Shown in pieces: positions 25,945 to 43,643 of a stretch of 64,000 nucleotides of DNA. The stretch is taken from positions 248,001 through 312,000 of the forward strand of contig NZ_JAUTDO010000002.1 in the NCBI RefSeq assembly GCF_030646165.1, in the 5' to 3' direction. Made by a program: the position numbers and the translations under genes. Positions within the stretch are counted from its first letter, which is position 1, and each line of letters starts with the position of its first letter. The notes under the pieces are model-generated. The model had not been told where the DNA came from. It worked only from the letters and a program-made list of their open reading frames with translations, and searched no databases. Source of the DNA: Conexibacter sp. CPCC 206217. GTDB lineage: Bacteria; Actinomycetota; Thermoleophilia; Solirubrobacterales; Solirubrobacteraceae.

Positions 25945-27012
25945 CTACGAAGTGCCGCCGGCGAGCGAGACGCGCCGCCGTGCGATGTCGACGCCGACGG
26001 CCAGGACCATGATCAGTCCGACCGCGACCGTCTGCCAGTTGGGGTTGACGCCCACGACGACGAGGCCGCTCTGCACGACCTGCAACAGCAACATGCCAAC
26101 GATTCCGGCGGCGACCGTGCCGACGCCGCCGAACAGGCTGACCCCGCCGATCACCACGCCGGCGATCACGGTCAGCTCCCAGCCGGTGCCGATCGCCGGG
26201 GTGCCGCTGGCGCCGTCGGCGAGCACGAGCATGCCGGCGACCGCCGACAGCGCGCCGACGACCATGAAGCAGGCGATCTTCACGCGCCCGGTGGAGATGC
26301 CCACCAGCCGCGCGACCTCCGCGTTGCCGCCGGTCGCGTACAGGTTGCGGCCGGTGGTGGTGCGCCGCAGGACCACGTCCGCGATCACCGCCAGCACGAC
26401 CAGCAGCACGAACGACCAGCCCAGCCCGAAGAGCACGTCGGCGCTGCCGATCTCGCCGATCGCTCTCGGCAGGGGATAGATCGGGTAGCCGTTGGTGATG
26501 ACGTAGATGAAGCCTCTGGCGGCGTACAGCATCCCGAGCGTCGCGATGAACGCGGGGATCCCGACGCCGACGACGAGGATGCCGTTGACGAAGCCGACGA
26601 GCGCGCCGGTCGCCAGCCCGCCGAGGATCCCGAGCGGGACCGGCAGATTGCCCTTCGTCATCAGCCAGGCGCTGACGATCGCCGACAGACCGGCGACGGA
26701 GCCGACCGAGAGGTCGAACTCGCCGGCGACGAGCAGCAGCGTCTGGCCGATCGCGATGATCCCGACGAACGAGACCGCCGTCAGCATCGAGCGCACGTTG
26801 GTGCCCGACAGGAAGGCCGGCTCGAGCAGCCAGAAGACCAGCACGAGTCCGGCGAGCGCGGCGATCACACCGGCCTCGCTGACCGCGAGCGCTCGGCGCA
26901 GCCGATTGGGGGCGGCGGGCGGGGCGGCGACCGCCTCGGCACCGGCCTCGGCCTCCGCCGCGACGGCTGCGGGCACGGAGGCGCCCAGCCGGTCGCGCTG
27001 CAACAGGTTCAC
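25945..27012 (-). CDS. Sugar ABC transporter permease (RbsC type)
   Basis: A 355-residue integral membrane protein with about ten hydrophobic segments and the branched-chain/ribose permease signature (GEFDLSVGSVAGLSAIV, NGILVVGVGIPAFIATLGMLYAARG). Charged/Ala-rich N-terminus of about 35 residues. First gene of the long minus-strand operon; the 314-bp region upstream contains the candidate operators and a palindromic repeat. It forms the transmembrane channel (homodimer) with the double ATPase. Confidence 0.9.
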   Translation of the reverse strand: MNLLQRDRLGASVPAAVAAEAEAGAEAVAAPPAAPNRLRRALAVSEAGVIAALAGLVLVFWLLEPAFLSGTNVRSMLTAVSFVGIIAIGQTLLLVAGEFDLSVGSVAGLSAIVSAWLMTKGNLPVPLGILGGLATGALVGFVNGILVVGVGIPAFIATLGMLYAARGFIYVITNGYPIYPLPRAIGEIGSADVLFGLGWSFVLLVVLAVIADVVLRRTTTGRNLYATGGNAEVARLVGISTGRVKIACFMVVGALSAVAGMLVLADGASGTPAIGTGWELTVIAGVVIGGVSLFGGVGTVAAGIVGMLLLQVVQSGLVVVGVNPNWQTVAVGLIMVLAVGVDIARRRVSLAGGTS

Positions 27013-27250: not shown

Positions 27251-27299
27251 GAGGACCGAAGGATTACTACCGCTCTACGGCAGCAGTCCTTCGGTGGTG
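27251..27299. repeat. Palindromic repeat, diverged third copy
   Basis: The first 18 bases (GAGGACCGAAGGATTACT) are identical to the two copies at 42658 and 43586. The second half has diverged, but ACCGAAGGA (27254-27262) still pairs perfectly with TCCTTCGGT (27288-27296). It lies between the 3' end of the SDR gene and the operon promoter, where it could also work as a terminator. It has no T-run. Confidence 0.7.
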
Positions 27300-27326: not shown

Positions 27327-28106
27327 TCATACCAACCGCGCGAGCAGGCCCGCGTCAGCGACGACCGTCGTGCCGTTGACGACGGCGGCAGCGGGGGTCG
27401 TCAGCCACGCGATCACGTCGGCGATCTCCTGCGGCGCCGCGATCCGGCCGATCGCCGTCCCGCGACCGGCGACGTCCGAGTCGTCGAAGCCGGCCTCCGC
27501 GGCGGACAGGCCGCGCCGCTCCAGCTCGCGGCGTGTCAGCGGCGTGTCGACGGAGCCGGGCGCCACGCAGACCGCGCGGATCCCGTCGGGCGCGAGGTCG
27601 AGCGCCATCTGCCGGGTGAGCGCGACGAGCGCACCCTTCGAGGCGGCGTAGGCCGCGTTGTCGGTCATCGTCGCGTAGGCGTGGACCGAGGCGGTGTTGA
27701 CGATCGTCCCGCCGCCCGCGGCCCGCAGCAGCGGGATCGCATGACGGGCGAGCCGAAAGACCGAGCCGAGGTTGACCGCCAGCAGGCGCTCGAGGTCGGC
27801 GTCGGAGACGTGCTCGACGGAATCGGGCGCGACCGCGATCCCGGCGACGTTGACGAGCGCGCGCAACTCCCCGAGCGCGGTCGCGGCGGCGACCGCCGCT
27901 TCGCAGTCGGCGCTTGACGCGACGTCGACCGCCCGCGCCAGCGCCCGTCCGCCGGCCTCTTCGATCTCGCCAGCGGTCCGCTCCGCGCCCGGACCGTCGA
28001 CGTCAGCGACGAGCACCGCATCGCCCTGTGCCGCAAGCGCGAGCGCCGCCGCCCGGCCGATCCCCGACGCGGCGCCGGTCACGATGCTCGCTCGCTGCGC
28101 GCTCAT
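27327..28106 (-). CDS. Short-chain dehydrogenase/reductase, second copy of locus
   Basis: A classical SDR: TGAASGIG, NVAG, NTASVHAYA and YAASK with SVDTPLTRREL near the C-terminus. Start ATG 28106 (MSAQRASIVTGAASGIG); an in-frame ATG at 28145 would add 13 charged residues. It has its own promoter region carrying a motif like that of the main operon, so it is probably co-regulated. The likely role is an NAD(P)-dependent oxidation of a sugar or sugar-derived alcohol. Confidence 0.88.
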   Translation of the reverse strand: MSAQRASIVTGAASGIGRAAALALAAQGDAVLVADVDGPGAERTAGEIEEAGGRALARAVDVASSADCEAAVAAATALGELRALVNVAGIAVAPDSVEHVSDADLERLLAVNLGSVFRLARHAIPLLRAAGGGTIVNTASVHAYATMTDNAAYAASKGALVALTRQMALDLAPDGIRAVCVAPGSVDTPLTRRELERRGLSAAEAGFDDSDVAGRGTAIGRIAAPQEIADVIAWLTTPAAAVVNGTTVVADAGLLARLV

Positions 28107-28194
28107 GCGCTCGCCCGCGCGCTGCTCGTCACGCCGCTTCCACATCGGTCCATCGTCTGCTCCCCTCGCGCGGCGAGCGCGCGCGTCGATCTTC

Positions 28195-37919: not shown

Positions 37920-39341
37920 TCAGCTGCGCTTGACGGCGGCGTGCCCCTTCGCCGCCGCGGCGCGCTTCTTCGCCGCGAGCGCGCGCTTCCGCTTCGCGGC
38001 CGCGGCGCGCTTGCGCTTCGCCGTCGCCACAGCCGCACGCTTCTGCTTCGCCGCGGCAGCCTTCTTCTTCGCCGCCGCCGTCTTGCGCGCTCTCGCGCTC
38101 GGAGCCGATCTGCCGGCCGGGCCGCGGGCGCCGCGCTGGCCTTCCACGCCTTGCGGGCCCACCGGACCAGCCGGACCGACGGGTCCGCGCGCGCCGTCGA
38201 GGCCGTCGTAGCCGTCGTAGCCGGTCAAGCCGGGGAGCCCGGGCAGGCCAGGGGCGCCGGGTGCGCCTGCGTCGCCGGTGGCGCCGGTCGCACCGGTCGC
38301 GCCTCTGGCGCCTCTCGCGCCTCTCTCGCCGTCGGCGCCCGCCGGCCCCTCCTCACCCGGCTCGCCCGGCTCACCGATCGGGGCGCCGGTGCTGGTGCCG
38401 GCCAGCCCGACCCGGTGCTCGCCGGCCGTCGTGTTCGCGTGCAGCACGAGCTGCGCGGTGCTGGTCGCCAGCGCCGCCGACGGCGCGAAGCGGATCGACA
38501 CGGTGCAACTCGCGGCCGGCGCGACGTCCGCGCGCGTGCAGGTCTGCGTCGTGACGATGAAGTCGTCCGCCTGCGCGCCCTCGACCCACAGGTCGTCGAC
38601 GTCGAGCGGCTGATCGCCGTGGTTGGTGACCGTGACGGTCCGCGCCGGGCCGATCGTCTGCGCGGTCTGGTTCGCGAACTGCGGCTTGGGCGCGAACAGG
38701 AACGGCGCGCCCGGAACCACCGGAGAGGCCGGCAGCGCCAGTCTGCCGGCGAATCTGAGGCCGATCGGGCCCGGGACGCCGAGCAGCATGCCGGCCTGGG
38801 TGCAGAAGTCGCCGCCGGTGATCGTGGCTCTGGGGTCGCCGGCGGCGATCGCCATCGAGCCGGTCAGCAGGTCGCGCGGCGCGCCCGTCACCGGGATCGG
38901 ATCCAGCGCGCTGCCGAGCACGACGCCGTCGGTCGTGTAGCGGTAGTCGGGCAGCAGGATCTCGCACGTCGCGACCGTCGGGGTCGTGAATCTGAGCACG
39001 ATGTGGAAGTCGCCCGTCAGCGTCACCTCGCCGGTCGTCTCGTCGAGTCTGCCGACCATGTCCTCGGTCGCGCCGATCGTGACGTTGGCGCCGATGTCGG
39101 CGACCGGGATCGTCGGCAGCGCGAAGCCCGAGCCCGGGAAGTCGAGGTTGCCGGCGGCGTCGATCGTGCCGCTCCACGGCACGCCCGGCAGCGCCGAGGC
39201 GAGGTCGTCGTCTCTCAACTGCAGCGCGAAGCCGGAGAGCGAGAACTGCACGGGGCCGGGCGTGAAGGCGGCCAGCGCGCCGGGCGCCGTCGCAAGCAGC
39301 AGCGCGCATGTCGCCGCGAGCAGGCCGATGAGTCGTCGCAT
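37920..39341 (-). CDS. Collagen-like protein with ASH domain and Lys/Ala-rich tail
   Basis: Start ATG 39341 (MRRLIGLLAATCALLLATAPGALAA, signal peptide). Order: a beta-rich N-terminal domain of about 190 residues; an ASH/choice-of-anchor-D-like domain (FANQTAQTIGPARTVTVTNHGDQPLDV..DDFIVTTQTC..SCTVSIRFAP); about 80 residues of Gly-X-Y (GEPGEPGEEGPAG.., GARGATGATGATG, with the unusual GLTGYDGYDGLDG); and a basic tail of about 60 residues made of AAAKKKA / AKRKRA repeats. The tail resembles histone-H1-like segments and should bind polyanions. Function unknown; probably at the envelope. Confidence 0.75.
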   Translation of the reverse strand: MRRLIGLLAATCALLLATAPGALAAFTPGPVQFSLSGFALQLRDDDLASALPGVPWSGTIDAAGNLDFPGSGFALPTIPVADIGANVTIGATEDMVGRLDETTGEVTLTGDFHIVLRFTTPTVATCEILLPDYRYTTDGVVLGSALDPIPVTGAPRDLLTGSMAIAAGDPRATITGGDFCTQAGMLLGVPGPIGLRFAGRLALPASPVVPGAPFLFAPKPQFANQTAQTIGPARTVTVTNHGDQPLDVDDLWVEGAQADDFIVTTQTCTRADVAPAASCTVSIRFAPSAALATSTAQLVLHANTTAGEHRVGLAGTSTGAPIGEPGEPGEEGPAGADGERGARGARGATGATGATGDAGAPGAPGLPGLPGLTGYDGYDGLDGARGPVGPAGPVGPQGVEGQRGARGPAGRSAPSARARKTAAAKKKAAAAKQKRAAVATAKRKRAAAAKRKRALAAKKRAAAAKGHAAVKRS

Positions 39342-39379
39342 GGAGAAGGTCCTGTCGTGGGAGGGGGTGCGCGCGGGCA

Positions 39380-41182
39380 TCAGATCGCCCGTCCGCGCTT
39401 GACGCCTGCGCGCTGCTTGTGCGCGACGGCCTGGGTGATCACGACGGCGCGCGTCGCGATCCGCACGTTGCCGGCGGCGTCCTTCGCCTGCACCGACAGG
39501 CGCGCGCGCAACTGCGGGGCGGCGCCGCGACGGCGCAGCCTCGCGAGCGCGCTCTCGACCCGCTTCGCCTCCTTCGCCGACAGCTTCAGCCGCAGCTGGC
39601 GTCTGCCGGGCTGCGCCGACGCCGTCGCCCGCGCGAGCGTCACGTCGACGGGGCGGTCCTCCGAGCCGCGCTGGCCCGGTCTCGTCGCCAGCTGGGACGT
39701 CCGCAGGATGGCGGTCAGCGTCGCCGCCTCGTCGACCTGCGCGGTCACGAGCAGGCCGACGCTGCGCAGGCTCGCGAGCGTGACGCGGGAACGTGCCGCC
39801 GCCAGTCTCAGGCCGGGCGCGTCGACGTCCTCGACGGTCACGACGCCGGGGCGCGGGTTCGGCACGCGCGGAGGCCGCGGGGCGCGCGGCGCGGGCTCGG
39901 CCGGCGGCTGCGGCGCCGCCGGCTGCTGGCCGGCGGGATGCTCGCCGCCCGGCTCCTCGCCACCGGGCTCCTCCTCGCCCTGATCCTGATCGGGATCCTC
40001 GGGCACTTCGCGGGCGGGCCGGAACGGGCCAGTCACCTCGTAGACGACGCCGTCGCCGCCTTGGCCGCGCTGCGAGGAGAAGTACATCCGTTCGCCGTCG
40101 GGGGAGAAGATCACGCCCGCGAACTCGGAGCCCTCATGGATGCCGGAGACCGACGAGGCGCGTACGACCGGAGAGATCACGCGCTCGGGCGTCACCATCA
40201 CGATGTCGAACTCGTCGTCGCCGTTGTCCTCGCAGACGAACACGTCGCCCGAGCGCGCGACGGTGAGGTTGTCCGGCCCGTGCAGGAAGTCGCCGTTGCC
40301 GCTGGTCGCCGGGTCATAGAGCTTCTCGAGCGTTCTTCTGACCGTGTCGTACGCCCACAGCGTGTGGTCGCCCTTGGTCGTGAAGTAGACGAAGCCCTCG
40401 TCGAACCAGATCCCCTCGCCGCCGTCGAACTTCGTCGCGGTCGCGACCTGTCTGCGCGTGCTGACAGTCACGCCGAGCGGATCCGGGACCTCGCGCCAGC
40501 TGACACGGTTTGTGCCGCTGCTGAGCACCGCGACCTCCAGCAGGCCGCTGGTGAGGTCCGGGTAGGTGGTGGGCGTGAAGCGGTAGAAGCAGCCCTCGCC
40601 CTCGTCCTCGGTCATATAGAGGCGTCTCTGGACGGGGTCGACCGCGACCGCCTCATGACTGAACGTGCCCATCGCGGGGCGCACGACGGCGTCTCTGAGG
40701 CCGAGCGGATCGCACTCCCACACCTGGCCGCCGCCGAACTCCTCGCATGTCAGCCACGTACCCCACGGCGTGCGGCCGCCGGCGCAGTTGGACGAGGTGC
40801 CCTCGCAGATCCGGTAGGCGGCGCTGACGTTGCCCTGTCTGTCGAAGTGCAGCGCCGATGCGCCGCCCGGCACGCTCTCGGAGTTGGACACGAGCACCCA
40901 ACTGCCGTCGGCCTGGGCGAACGTCGCCTGGCCGTCAGACGCCGGATGCCAGGTGTAGGAGGTGTTGGGGACCGGCGCTCTGCCGCGCGCCAGCTCGCGC
41001 GATCTGAAGCCCTGCGGCAGCATCAGCCCGTTGGCGTCGGGCGCCTGCAGCGGGCCGTAGGGGCCGTCGCCGACGGTCGCGGGGGCAGCGAGCGCGCCGC
41101 GCCAGAAGGACGGGCCGAGCGCGAGCACGCCGGCAGCGGCGACGCCGCCGGCCAGGAAGTCTCGTCGACGAATAGCAGTCAT
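39380..41182 (-). CDS. PhoX-type (DUF839) exported phosphatase with C-terminal extension
   Basis: Tat signal (AIRRRDFLAGGVAAAGVLALG) followed by the PhoX/DUF839 beta-propeller: LMLPQGFRSREL, NSESVPGG, PWGTWLTCEEFGGGQ, GTFSHEAVAVDP, YMTEDEGEGCFYRF, HGPDNLTVARSGDVFVCEDNG. These acidic loops carry the metal ligands of PhoX alkaline phosphatases. After about residue 395 an acidic/Pro-rich hinge leads to a beta-like C-terminal domain of about 150 residues with a basic end (AGVKRGRAI). It likely liberates phosphate from organic phosphates outside the membrane. Confidence 0.82.
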   Translation of the reverse strand: MTAIRRRDFLAGGVAAAGVLALGPSFWRGALAAPATVGDGPYGPLQAPDANGLMLPQGFRSRELARGRAPVPNTSYTWHPASDGQATFAQADGSWVLVSNSESVPGGASALHFDRQGNVSAAYRICEGTSSNCAGGRTPWGTWLTCEEFGGGQVWECDPLGLRDAVVRPAMGTFSHEAVAVDPVQRRLYMTEDEGEGCFYRFTPTTYPDLTSGLLEVAVLSSGTNRVSWREVPDPLGVTVSTRRQVATATKFDGGEGIWFDEGFVYFTTKGDHTLWAYDTVRRTLEKLYDPATSGNGDFLHGPDNLTVARSGDVFVCEDNGDDEFDIVMVTPERVISPVVRASSVSGIHEGSEFAGVIFSPDGERMYFSSQRGQGGDGVVYEVTGPFRPAREVPEDPDQDQGEEEPGGEEPGGEHPAGQQPAAPQPPAEPAPRAPRPPRVPNPRPGVVTVEDVDAPGLRLAAARSRVTLASLRSVGLLVTAQVDEAATLTAILRTSQLATRPGQRGSEDRPVDVTLARATASAQPGRRQLRLKLSAKEAKRVESALARLRRRGAAPQLRARLSVQAKDAAGNVRIATRAVVITQAVAHKQRAGVKRGRAI

Positions 41183-42546: not shown

Positions 42547-42639
42547 GGGCGGCGCGGCGTGTGATCGTGCCGCGCTCTCGGCGCCGATTCGGCACAGCCC
42601 GCGCGCCACACGGCACAGTTTTCCTGGCACGCTCGGAGC

Positions 42640-43584
42640 ATGCCGCCACTCCCCCTTGAGGACCGAAGGATTACTGCTGCTGTACAGCAGCAAACTGTCG
42701 GTCCTATCGATCGAGACATCGCAAAGCTGGCGGATCGCCAGCATGGTGTTGTGGCCAGGCGGCAGCTCGACGCGCTCGGGGTCACACCTTCGATGGTGGC
42801 CGTTCGCCTCGACCGTCGGCGACTGCTCAAACTCCACCGCGGCGTCTACGCCGTCGGCCATGCCCGTCTGACGCGACAGGGTGAATGGCTGGCAGCGGTG
42901 CTGGCCGCCGGACCCGGCGCCGTCTTGAGCCACCGCAGCGCCGCGGCCTTGCACGGCCTGCGAGGCGAGCGCGGCAGACGTGTCGACGTCGCTACCGCAG
43001 CGAACCGGGTCAGCACGCATCGGATCGAAGTGCACCGCCGCCAACTGCTCCCCGACGCCGACGTCACCGCACGCGCGGGGATCCCGGTCACAACGGTCTC
43101 GCGCACCCTCGTGGATCTTGCCGAGCTGCTCGGGCCCCGTCCGCTGGCGCGCGCCATCAACGAGGCCGACGTGCTCGGCATGCTCGACCTCGACGACGTG
43201 CTCGCAGCGACGGGCCGGTTGCGCGGACGGCGGGGCCGCGGCCGCGGCATGATCGTCGCCACGCTCGAGCGCCACCTCGGCCCGGATCTGCTGCGCTCCG
43301 AACTGGAACACCGCTTCAGAGAGCTGCTGATCGATCACGCACTCCCCCGAGCCGAGCACAACGTCCACATCGGCAGATGGGAAGTCGACGCATGCTGGCG
43401 CCCGCAACGTCTCATCGTCGAACTCGACAGCAGATTCCACGACACCCCTGCCGCACGACGGCAGGACGCCGTCAAGGAACGCGCGCTGCGGGCCGCCGGC
43501 TGGCACGTCGTCCGCTACCGCTGGCGCGACGTCGTCGGAGCCCCGCGGCGCACCGCGGACGAACTGCGCGGGGTGCTCCACTGA
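42640..43584 (+). CDS. AbiEi-like wHTH plus DUF559 (PD-(D/E)XK-type) protein, palindrome-bracketed
   Basis: N-terminal AbiEi/transcriptional-regulator-like domain (IAKLADRQHGVVARRQLDALGVTPSMVAVRL..LHRGVYAVG), a middle region (VTTVSRTLVDLAELL), and a C-terminal DUF559/Vsr-like nuclease fold with the acidic motif WEVDACWRPQRLIVELDS and GWHVVRYRWRDV. Family proteins normally start at about IDRDIAKLADRQHG; the codon there is ATC, and the upstream 22 residues from ATG 42640 are mostly encoded by palindrome copy 1. A second palindrome begins two bases after the TGA. The function is unproven; it may be a nuclease of a mobile cassette or an orphan toxin/antitoxin-like gene. Confidence 0.75.
   Translation: MPPLPLEDRRITAAVQQQTVGPIDRDIAKLADRQHGVVARRQLDALGVTPSMVAVRLDRRRLLKLHRGVYAVGHARLTRQGEWLAAVLAAGPGAVLSHRSAAALHGLRGERGRRVDVATAANRVSTHRIEVHRRQLLPDADVTARAGIPVTTVSRTLVDLAELLGPRPLARAINEADVLGMLDLDDVLAATGRLRGRRGRGRGMIVATLERHLGPDLLRSELEHRFRELLIDHALPRAEHNVHIGRWEVDACWRPQRLIVELDSRFHDTPAARRQDAVKERALRAAGWHVVRYRWRDVVGAPRRTADELRGVLH
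42658..42706. repeat. Palindromic repeat, copy 1 (at the gene start)
   Basis: A 49-bp element; 48 bases are identical to copy 2. Outer arms GAGGACCGA and TCGGTCCT (final base changed to A), inner perfect palindrome GCTGCTGTACAGCAGC (42676-42691). It is read in frame as EDRRITAAVQQQTVGP at the N-terminus of the DUF559 protein. Confidence 0.9.
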
Positions 43585-43585
43585 C

Positions 43586-43634
43586 GAGGACCGAAGGATT
43601 ACTGCTGCTGTACAGCAGCAAACTGTCGGTCCTC
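43586..43634. repeat. Palindromic repeat, copy 2 (after the gene stop)
   Basis: A 49-bp element with perfect 9-bp outer arms GAGGACCGA / TCGGTCCTC and the inner 16-bp palindrome at 43604-43619. It starts two bases after the DUF559 stop codon and ends 9 bp before the 3' end of the DNA polymerase III delta' gene on the other strand, so it may also act as a terminator. Confidence 0.9.
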
Positions 43635-43643
43635 GGTGCGCCG

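Follow-up and report, generated by a model that had tools for sequence, protein, structure and literature searches.

A predicted Vsr/homing-type nuclease gene bracketed by copies of a dispersed 49-bp palindrome in Conexibacter sp. CPCC 206217: a probable REPtron-like unit

RAYT/REP REPtrons consist of palindromes of 20–50 nt, dispersed mostly in intergenic regions and clustered in places, and of repeat-specific enzymes paired with them, and the spreading of GTAG-tagged REPs is credited to HUH tyrosine transposases (PMC8266576, PMC3733652; available text). About six hundred REP copies are reported for E. coli K12 (PMC8266576, available text), and CGTC-tagged REPs are apparently without a dedicated transposase according to the available text of PMC3733652. 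The homing endonuclease I-Bth0305I forms a dimer on a target almost 60 bp long (PMC3943268, available text), AbiEi antitoxins autoregulate through inverted repeats (PMC7319586, available text), and Vsr enzymes nick T-G mismatches (PMC12907096, available text). A search of the open-access literature (subscription papers being outside its scope) found no description linking AbiEi-DUF559 genes to cognate dispersed palindromes and, by title, nothing on such palindromic repeats in Conexibacter.

The window, i.e., the whole stretch of DNA analyzed, comprises 64,000 nt of contig NZ_JAUTDO010000002.1 of Conexibacter sp. CPCC 206217. The following features were identified in it:

42605..43637, strand not assigned: segment present here and missing at the syntenic site of sister genome G005 (ends of blastn HSPs, approximate)
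42619..42633, forward strand: TTTTCCTGGCACGCT, an upstream stretch that recurs at the genome's other intact-looking DUF559 locus, the second one (L017), putative promoter
42640..43584, forward strand: gene encoding a 314-aa protein with an AbiEi-like winged helix and a DUF559 (Vsr/EDxHD-type nuclease) region (ORF, profile matches and model)
42658..42706, forward strand: 5′ copy of the 49-bp palindrome, translated as protein residues 7–23
42715..42855, forward strand: AbiEi_4 winged-helix region, residues 26–72 (profile match)
43357..43569, forward strand: DUF559 region, residues 240–310 (profile match)
43586..43634, forward strand: 3′ copy of the 49-bp palindrome, beginning 2 nt past the stop codon
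27251..27299, forward strand: dispersed member of this palindrome family, lying between genes 25945–27012 and 27327–28145 (both reverse strand); missing from the G005 syntenic region

The two copies of the palindrome at the ends of the gene had the same orientation and a spacing of 928 bp, and were identical at 48 of 49 positions, the last base being A in the 5′ copy and C in the 3′ copy; the pair described in an earlier, sequence-only reading of this DNA was thus confirmed. The outer arms were GAGGACCGA and TCGGTCCTC, whereas the inner perfect palindrome, TGCTGCTGTACAGCAGCA, was 18 bp long and not 16 bp as had been given. The palindrome core (up to three mismatches) occurred twice in the window, against a mean of 0.02 in dinucleotide shuffles, which is far beyond chance.

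The encoded protein matched the AbiEi profile of PADLOC (E-value = 6.9 × 10−31) and had at least 3407 homologues at E ≤ 0.001. Residues E223, D250, D263, H267 and D276 were invariant in an alignment of 45 sequences, and this E-D-D-H-D set agrees in order and residue types with the Vsr-like residues given in the available text of PMC12907096, where the Vsr active-site residues E25, D51, H64, H69 and D97 correspond to E73, D102, D115, H119 and D124 of a Caulobacter DUF559 protein. The AlphaFold model had a mean pLDDT of 91, with values below 50 for residues 1–5 and 7–17, encoded by the first palindrome and the stretch just before it. The AbiEi antitoxin 6y8q was the top PDB match of the model (E-value = 2.3 × 10−7) and the only one at E = 0.001 or better, followed by mitoribosomal proteins with poor rmsd. 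The nuclease domain of the model matched the homing endonuclease I-Bth0305I (3r3p; E-value = 6 × 10−3, TMt = 0.77), the match of the model to Vsr (1cw0) was weak (E-value = 0.17), and a PDB sequence search with the protein gave no match. As modelled, the fold is of a nuclease type and carries the conserved residues; it is predicted from this fold that the AbiEi-like winged helix binds DNA and that the C-terminal domain cuts it.

The bracketed gene was present in one copy in the genome, with a nearest paralogue 46% identical at the protein level, and a protein search of the genome contigs gave one distant locus. The third DUF559 match of the genome (G000:C1:789178-789768, L018–L020) was split over three pieces and looks degenerate. 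The four neighbours of the gene encode a TetR protein, a 76-aa ORF product without a match, a small predicted membrane protein and DNA polymerase III delta′; the AbiEii nucleotidyltransferase toxin was not found among these four.

Alignment of the flanks with sister genome G005 by blastn showed that they abut at window positions 42604/43638, with an overlap of 4 nt in G005. The start of the extra segment thus lies approximately 53 bp upstream of the first palindrome, and its end approximately 3 bp past the second one; the palindromes are not its exact borders. In G005, G004, G003 and G001, the gene of the small membrane protein adjoins holB, with neither a DUF559 gene nor a palindrome between them (the absence was confirmed by blastn for G005, G004 and G003, and was judged by eye for G001). 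The syntenic region of G005 also had no copy corresponding to that at 27251, the single dispersed copy compared. The simplest reading of these comparisons would be a lineage-specific gain of the gene and the repeats, and loss of both in all sisters may be an alternative. Insertion of the gene into a pre-existing host palindrome, with duplication of the latter, was rejected because the syntenic sites examined are without a palindrome.

A 62-bp query around the second palindrome revealed at least 31 further places in the same genome at E < 0.01, this being a lower bound, with the best 40 candidates scored per genome. The same query gave best matches of E = 0.36 or worse in six sister species, one of them having no match at all. 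BLAST identities of the own-genome copies were 76–89%, except for one 20-nt match, and their mean pairwise identity was 75%. The length was 49 bp in 31 of the 33 copies examined, most of which span GAGGACC to GGTCCTC, and 19 of the 33 were intergenic (according to a crude ORF caller, which wrongly assigned one copy, that at 27251, to a spurious ORF). The flanks had few 13-mers in common, and no clear excess of flanking direct repeats, as expected of a target-site duplication, was found at 2–9 nt in 35 copies. In G000:C22:224996-226930, an ordinary-looking gene was located between two dispersed copies 1.9 kb apart.

These results modified the sequence-only reading, which had regarded the palindromes as precise limits of a possible mobile cassette. 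The G005 alignment places the edges of the segment elsewhere, and the part that looks mobile is the palindrome itself, dispersed over the genome, while the gene is single-copy. The suggestion that gene and palindromes belong together was supported, as they were jointly present here and jointly missing at the four syntenic sites; the assignment to nuclease-type proteins agrees with the homing-endonuclease-like modelled domain, and the parallel drawn with RAYT/REP was judged apt. Scattering of the palindromes without a link to the DUF559 family had been named as evidence against the proposal: the palindromes are indeed scattered, but the link to the family persisted, as follows.

The best-scoring 109 loci encoding relatives were taken from longer lists for the genus and the family. 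Gapped hairpin scores of 26 or more were obtained for 39 of 109 loci at the 5′ site and for 11 of 106 at the 3′ site, as against 5 of 735 control windows; scores of 20 or more were obtained for 57 of 109, 18 of 106 and 45 of 735, respectively. The palindrome sequences differed between loci. Since 21 of the 23 ATGs located in loops of 5′ palindromes were in frame with the gene, the palindrome in those loci has its centre at the start codon. In 20 of 105 loci (score ≥ 40), compared with 2 of 1260 swapped pairs, sequence matching the 5′ region was found at or after the stop codon, some of these copies being direct and others inverted. Each genome carries several genes of this family; roughly half of the loci have a clear start palindrome of their own, and roughly one-fifth have a matching copy after the stop. 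In a sample of the phylum, the 5′ palindrome was found at a score of at least 18 in none of 27 loci (26 outside the family and one inside), from which, set against the 57 of 109 family loci reaching 20, it follows that the protein is widespread without the palindrome. Five loci of this sample lying outside the family (L139, L149, L151, L152 and L156) had a hairpin near the stop codon (score 23–38) and none at the start.

Within the genomes searched, the tested palindromes of these genes recurred almost exclusively in their own genomes. Fifteen palindromes combined in one DNA query were searched in five genomes, which yielded 90 places in the respective own genome and no place in another, and 22 palindromes from Conexibacter loci gave, among the matches listed for five genomes, at least 101 own-genome and 3 other-genome places; for all 37 together, at least 191 and 3 places were listed, respectively, the own-genome counts including the copies next to the genes. 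Of the 37 palindromes, 26 (13/15 and 13/22) had three or more listed places, one had two and ten had a single one. Twelve of the 37 measured exactly 49 bp. In genome G014, seven of the eight palindromes tested were dispersed; the ten DUF559 genes of this genome had palindromes at both ends in six cases (some of them weak), at one end in three and at neither in one. A pattern search with the palindrome of locus L094 found 11 solitary copies in addition to the two flanking the gene, and in four other genomes no match or one one-sided match with three mismatches, no more than with a control pattern. Next to some of the L094 solo copies were palindromes resembling those that accompany further DUF559 genes of this genome. 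When nine stretches of G014, each of 20 kb, were scanned, five of the six strongest palindromes (score ≥ 32) belonged to families cognate to DUF559 genes. At G014:C1:1149410-1149840, two such families, those of L190 and L096, are arranged as a BIME-like tandem doublet with a 313-bp period.

The reading considered rather probable is that the locus is a REPtron-like unit, in which a predicted Vsr/homing-type nuclease gene, with a product unrelated to RAYT, is bracketed by its own 49-bp palindrome, likely spread by that nuclease. Recognition of the cognate palindrome by the protein would probably take place on a folded or extruded hairpin; the protein would then nick it, whereupon host repair or replication would copy the palindrome to a new site. 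No rejoining of strands is to be expected from a metal-dependent hydrolytic nuclease, so that spreading would need host functions. Through the copy at the start codon, the protein would also keep down its own expression, in the way that AbiEi antitoxins use inverted repeats. The bracketed nuclease is favoured as the mover because known movers were not found in six of the genomes searched and, in G014, were not near the three repeat families tested, and by analogy with REPtrons as presented in the available text of PMC8266576. Several results run counter to this model: one ordinary gene is located between two dispersed copies, the protein is widespread without a start palindrome, a clear target-site duplication was not found, and, as given below, palindrome similarity is only weakly related to protein similarity and covariation among the copies barely exceeds that of shuffles.

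The locus resembles REPtrons in its short palindromes, both dispersed and clustered, in an enzyme gene bordered by cognate palindromes and in specific enzyme/repeat pairs. It differs in that the enzyme is an AbiEi-DUF559 nuclease without HUH/Tyr, PF01797 being missing from this genome, in that the palindromes are without a GTAG tag and often lie over the start codon, and in the lower number of copies (1 to 13 listed places per palindrome, with 33 further copies for the family of the window). CGTC-REPs are likewise palindromic repeats, apparently without a dedicated transposase, but of the 35 palindromes only 5 and 8 carried CGTC and GACG, respectively, close to an end. The modelled fold of the nuclease domain and the E-D-x-H-D residues are similar to those of the EDxHD homing endonuclease I-Bth0305I, whereas no intron, intein or split target gene was seen here, an AbiEi-like DNA-binding module is attached, and the palindrome is a dispersed repeat of the gene's own. 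The winged helix, the second AbiEi-like domain and the repeats at the gene start recall the AbiEi antitoxin of type IV AbiE systems; in contrast, AbiEii is missing among the four neighbours, a nuclease is fused, and the repeats are genome-wide. The E-D-D-H-D residues and the weak fold match are in common with the Vsr/VsrA (DUF559) nicking endonucleases, from which this multi-gene family differs in having palindromes.

Another explanation, judged unlikely, is that the AbiEi-like winged helix uses the palindromes as its operators, for autoregulation at the gene's own start, with the dispersed ones forming a regulon and no mobility involved. The known autoregulation of AbiEi antitoxins and the in-frame position of the loop ATGs agree with it. 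However, such sites were not found in sister species, and the one syntenic intergenic region compared was without a copy, although the sites of a regulon should normally be retained at orthologous promoters; operators alone also fit poorly with the recurring length of exactly 49 bp and with the second copy after the stop codon.

Very improbable is a homing unit, in which the gene and its flanks would move by double-strand break repair into a fixed target, leaving the dispersed palindromes as remnants of old insertions. The homing-type nuclease fold of the model and the empty site for the entire 1.03-kb segment are consistent with such a unit, but the whole-genome protein search gave no relatives at the dispersed copies, and tblastn on 35 dispersed-copy loci gave two short N-terminal matches only (L300 and L271), in which the palindrome itself is coding. 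Moreover, the segment reaches upstream of the palindrome, and the empty sites examined contained no palindrome as a target.

It is no more credible that these are ordinary REPs moved by a RAYT or IS200/IS605 transposase, with the DUF559 genes as bystanders caught between them. The size and BIME-like clustering agree with REPs, and Y1_Tnp genes were found in G014 (three), G035 (one) and G049 (one); however, no Y1_Tnp (PF01797) match was found in G000 (this genome), G003, G004, G005, G006 and G101, and the Y1/HUH transposase was missing from all five Conexibacter genomes searched. Three repeat probes were at background level within approximately 1.5 kb of the G014 Y1_Tnp genes, and GTAG or CTAC was found near an end in none of 35 palindromes (two of the 37 could not be placed exactly). 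Copies at both ends of a given gene would arise by chance with a probability of approximately 5 × 10−7 (rough estimate), yet matching copies were found in 20 of 105 loci.

The mismatches in the stems bear on the remaining reading. Isolated stem mismatches of the 5′ palindromes, read on the coding strand, were A-C in 24 cases and G-U in 7 (p = 0.003), with 14 versus 5 (p = 0.064) and 10 versus 4 (p = 0.18) under stricter rules; the 3′ copies had no such bias, and some palindrome families had other mismatch types. In the outer 20 pairs of 31 dispersed copies of the window's family, 46 A-C and 23 G-U mismatches were counted, 17 copies leaning towards A-C and 4 towards G-U, a strand bias that is only suggestive because of the common descent of the copies. 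Own-genome copies showed covariation barely exceeding that of shuffles (51 of 500 as high). Five compensatory changes were found between the 5′ and 3′ copies of 20 loci versus a null mean of 1.24 and a maximum of 4 in 500 runs, the numbers being small. That the palindromes are RNA or transcription signals (terminators or start-codon hairpins) duplicated by recombination is likewise very improbable: hairpins do straddle the start codon or come after the stop in many loci, but the excess of A-C over G-U is the opposite of what a selected mRNA hairpin would have, Rfam gave no match on 8 loci, which also disfavours a sense-RNA hairpin in general, and neither role explains same-genome recurrence together with the difference between sister species.

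A-C mismatches on the coding strand correspond to T-G on the opposite strand, and since Vsr enzymes nick T-G mismatches, this may be the substrate feature, although the copies share descent and other mismatch types occur in some families. Similarity of palindromes was only weakly related to that of the proteins (Spearman 0.11–0.16 across three protein regions), and in L038 and L042 winged helices 75% identical were accompanied by a palindrome similarity of 0.44; reading of the palindrome sequence by the winged helix was therefore set aside.

A broader proposal, towards which the evidence leans slightly, is that of a second, independently evolved kind of REPtron, in which AbiEi-DUF559 nucleases would drive species-specific palindromes as several orthogonal enzyme/repeat pairs per genome, acting on the folded strand opposite the gene, where A-C stem mismatches become T-G nicked in the Vsr manner. 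The system is not classed as a REPtron because it has neither an HUH enzyme nor a GTAG tag, though it would work alike. If true, a hydrolytic homing-like nuclease with matched repeats would mean that enzyme/repeat pairs arose more than once, would point to a type of enzyme that is a candidate for orphan repeats, and would assign a role to a protein family that is very common but filed as of unknown function or as an orphan antitoxin; with several distinct pairs per genome, the recognition rules would be testable through swapping.

Of the 109 family loci, 17 contained the motif GGGGGCGA upstream of the 5′ palindrome site, at a distance of up to 90 nt and in several of them directly past the stop codon of the upstream gene; the motif is possibly a promoter, a ribosome site or the end of an element. 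Four dispersed copies of the window's family (L287, L302, L278 and L299) had an altered end (GGTGGTG or GGTGGTA) followed by a common GARATC stretch, which has the look of a recombination between two types of repeat. An ORF at window positions 37920–39380 (reverse strand) encodes long collagen-like Gly-X-Y repeats.
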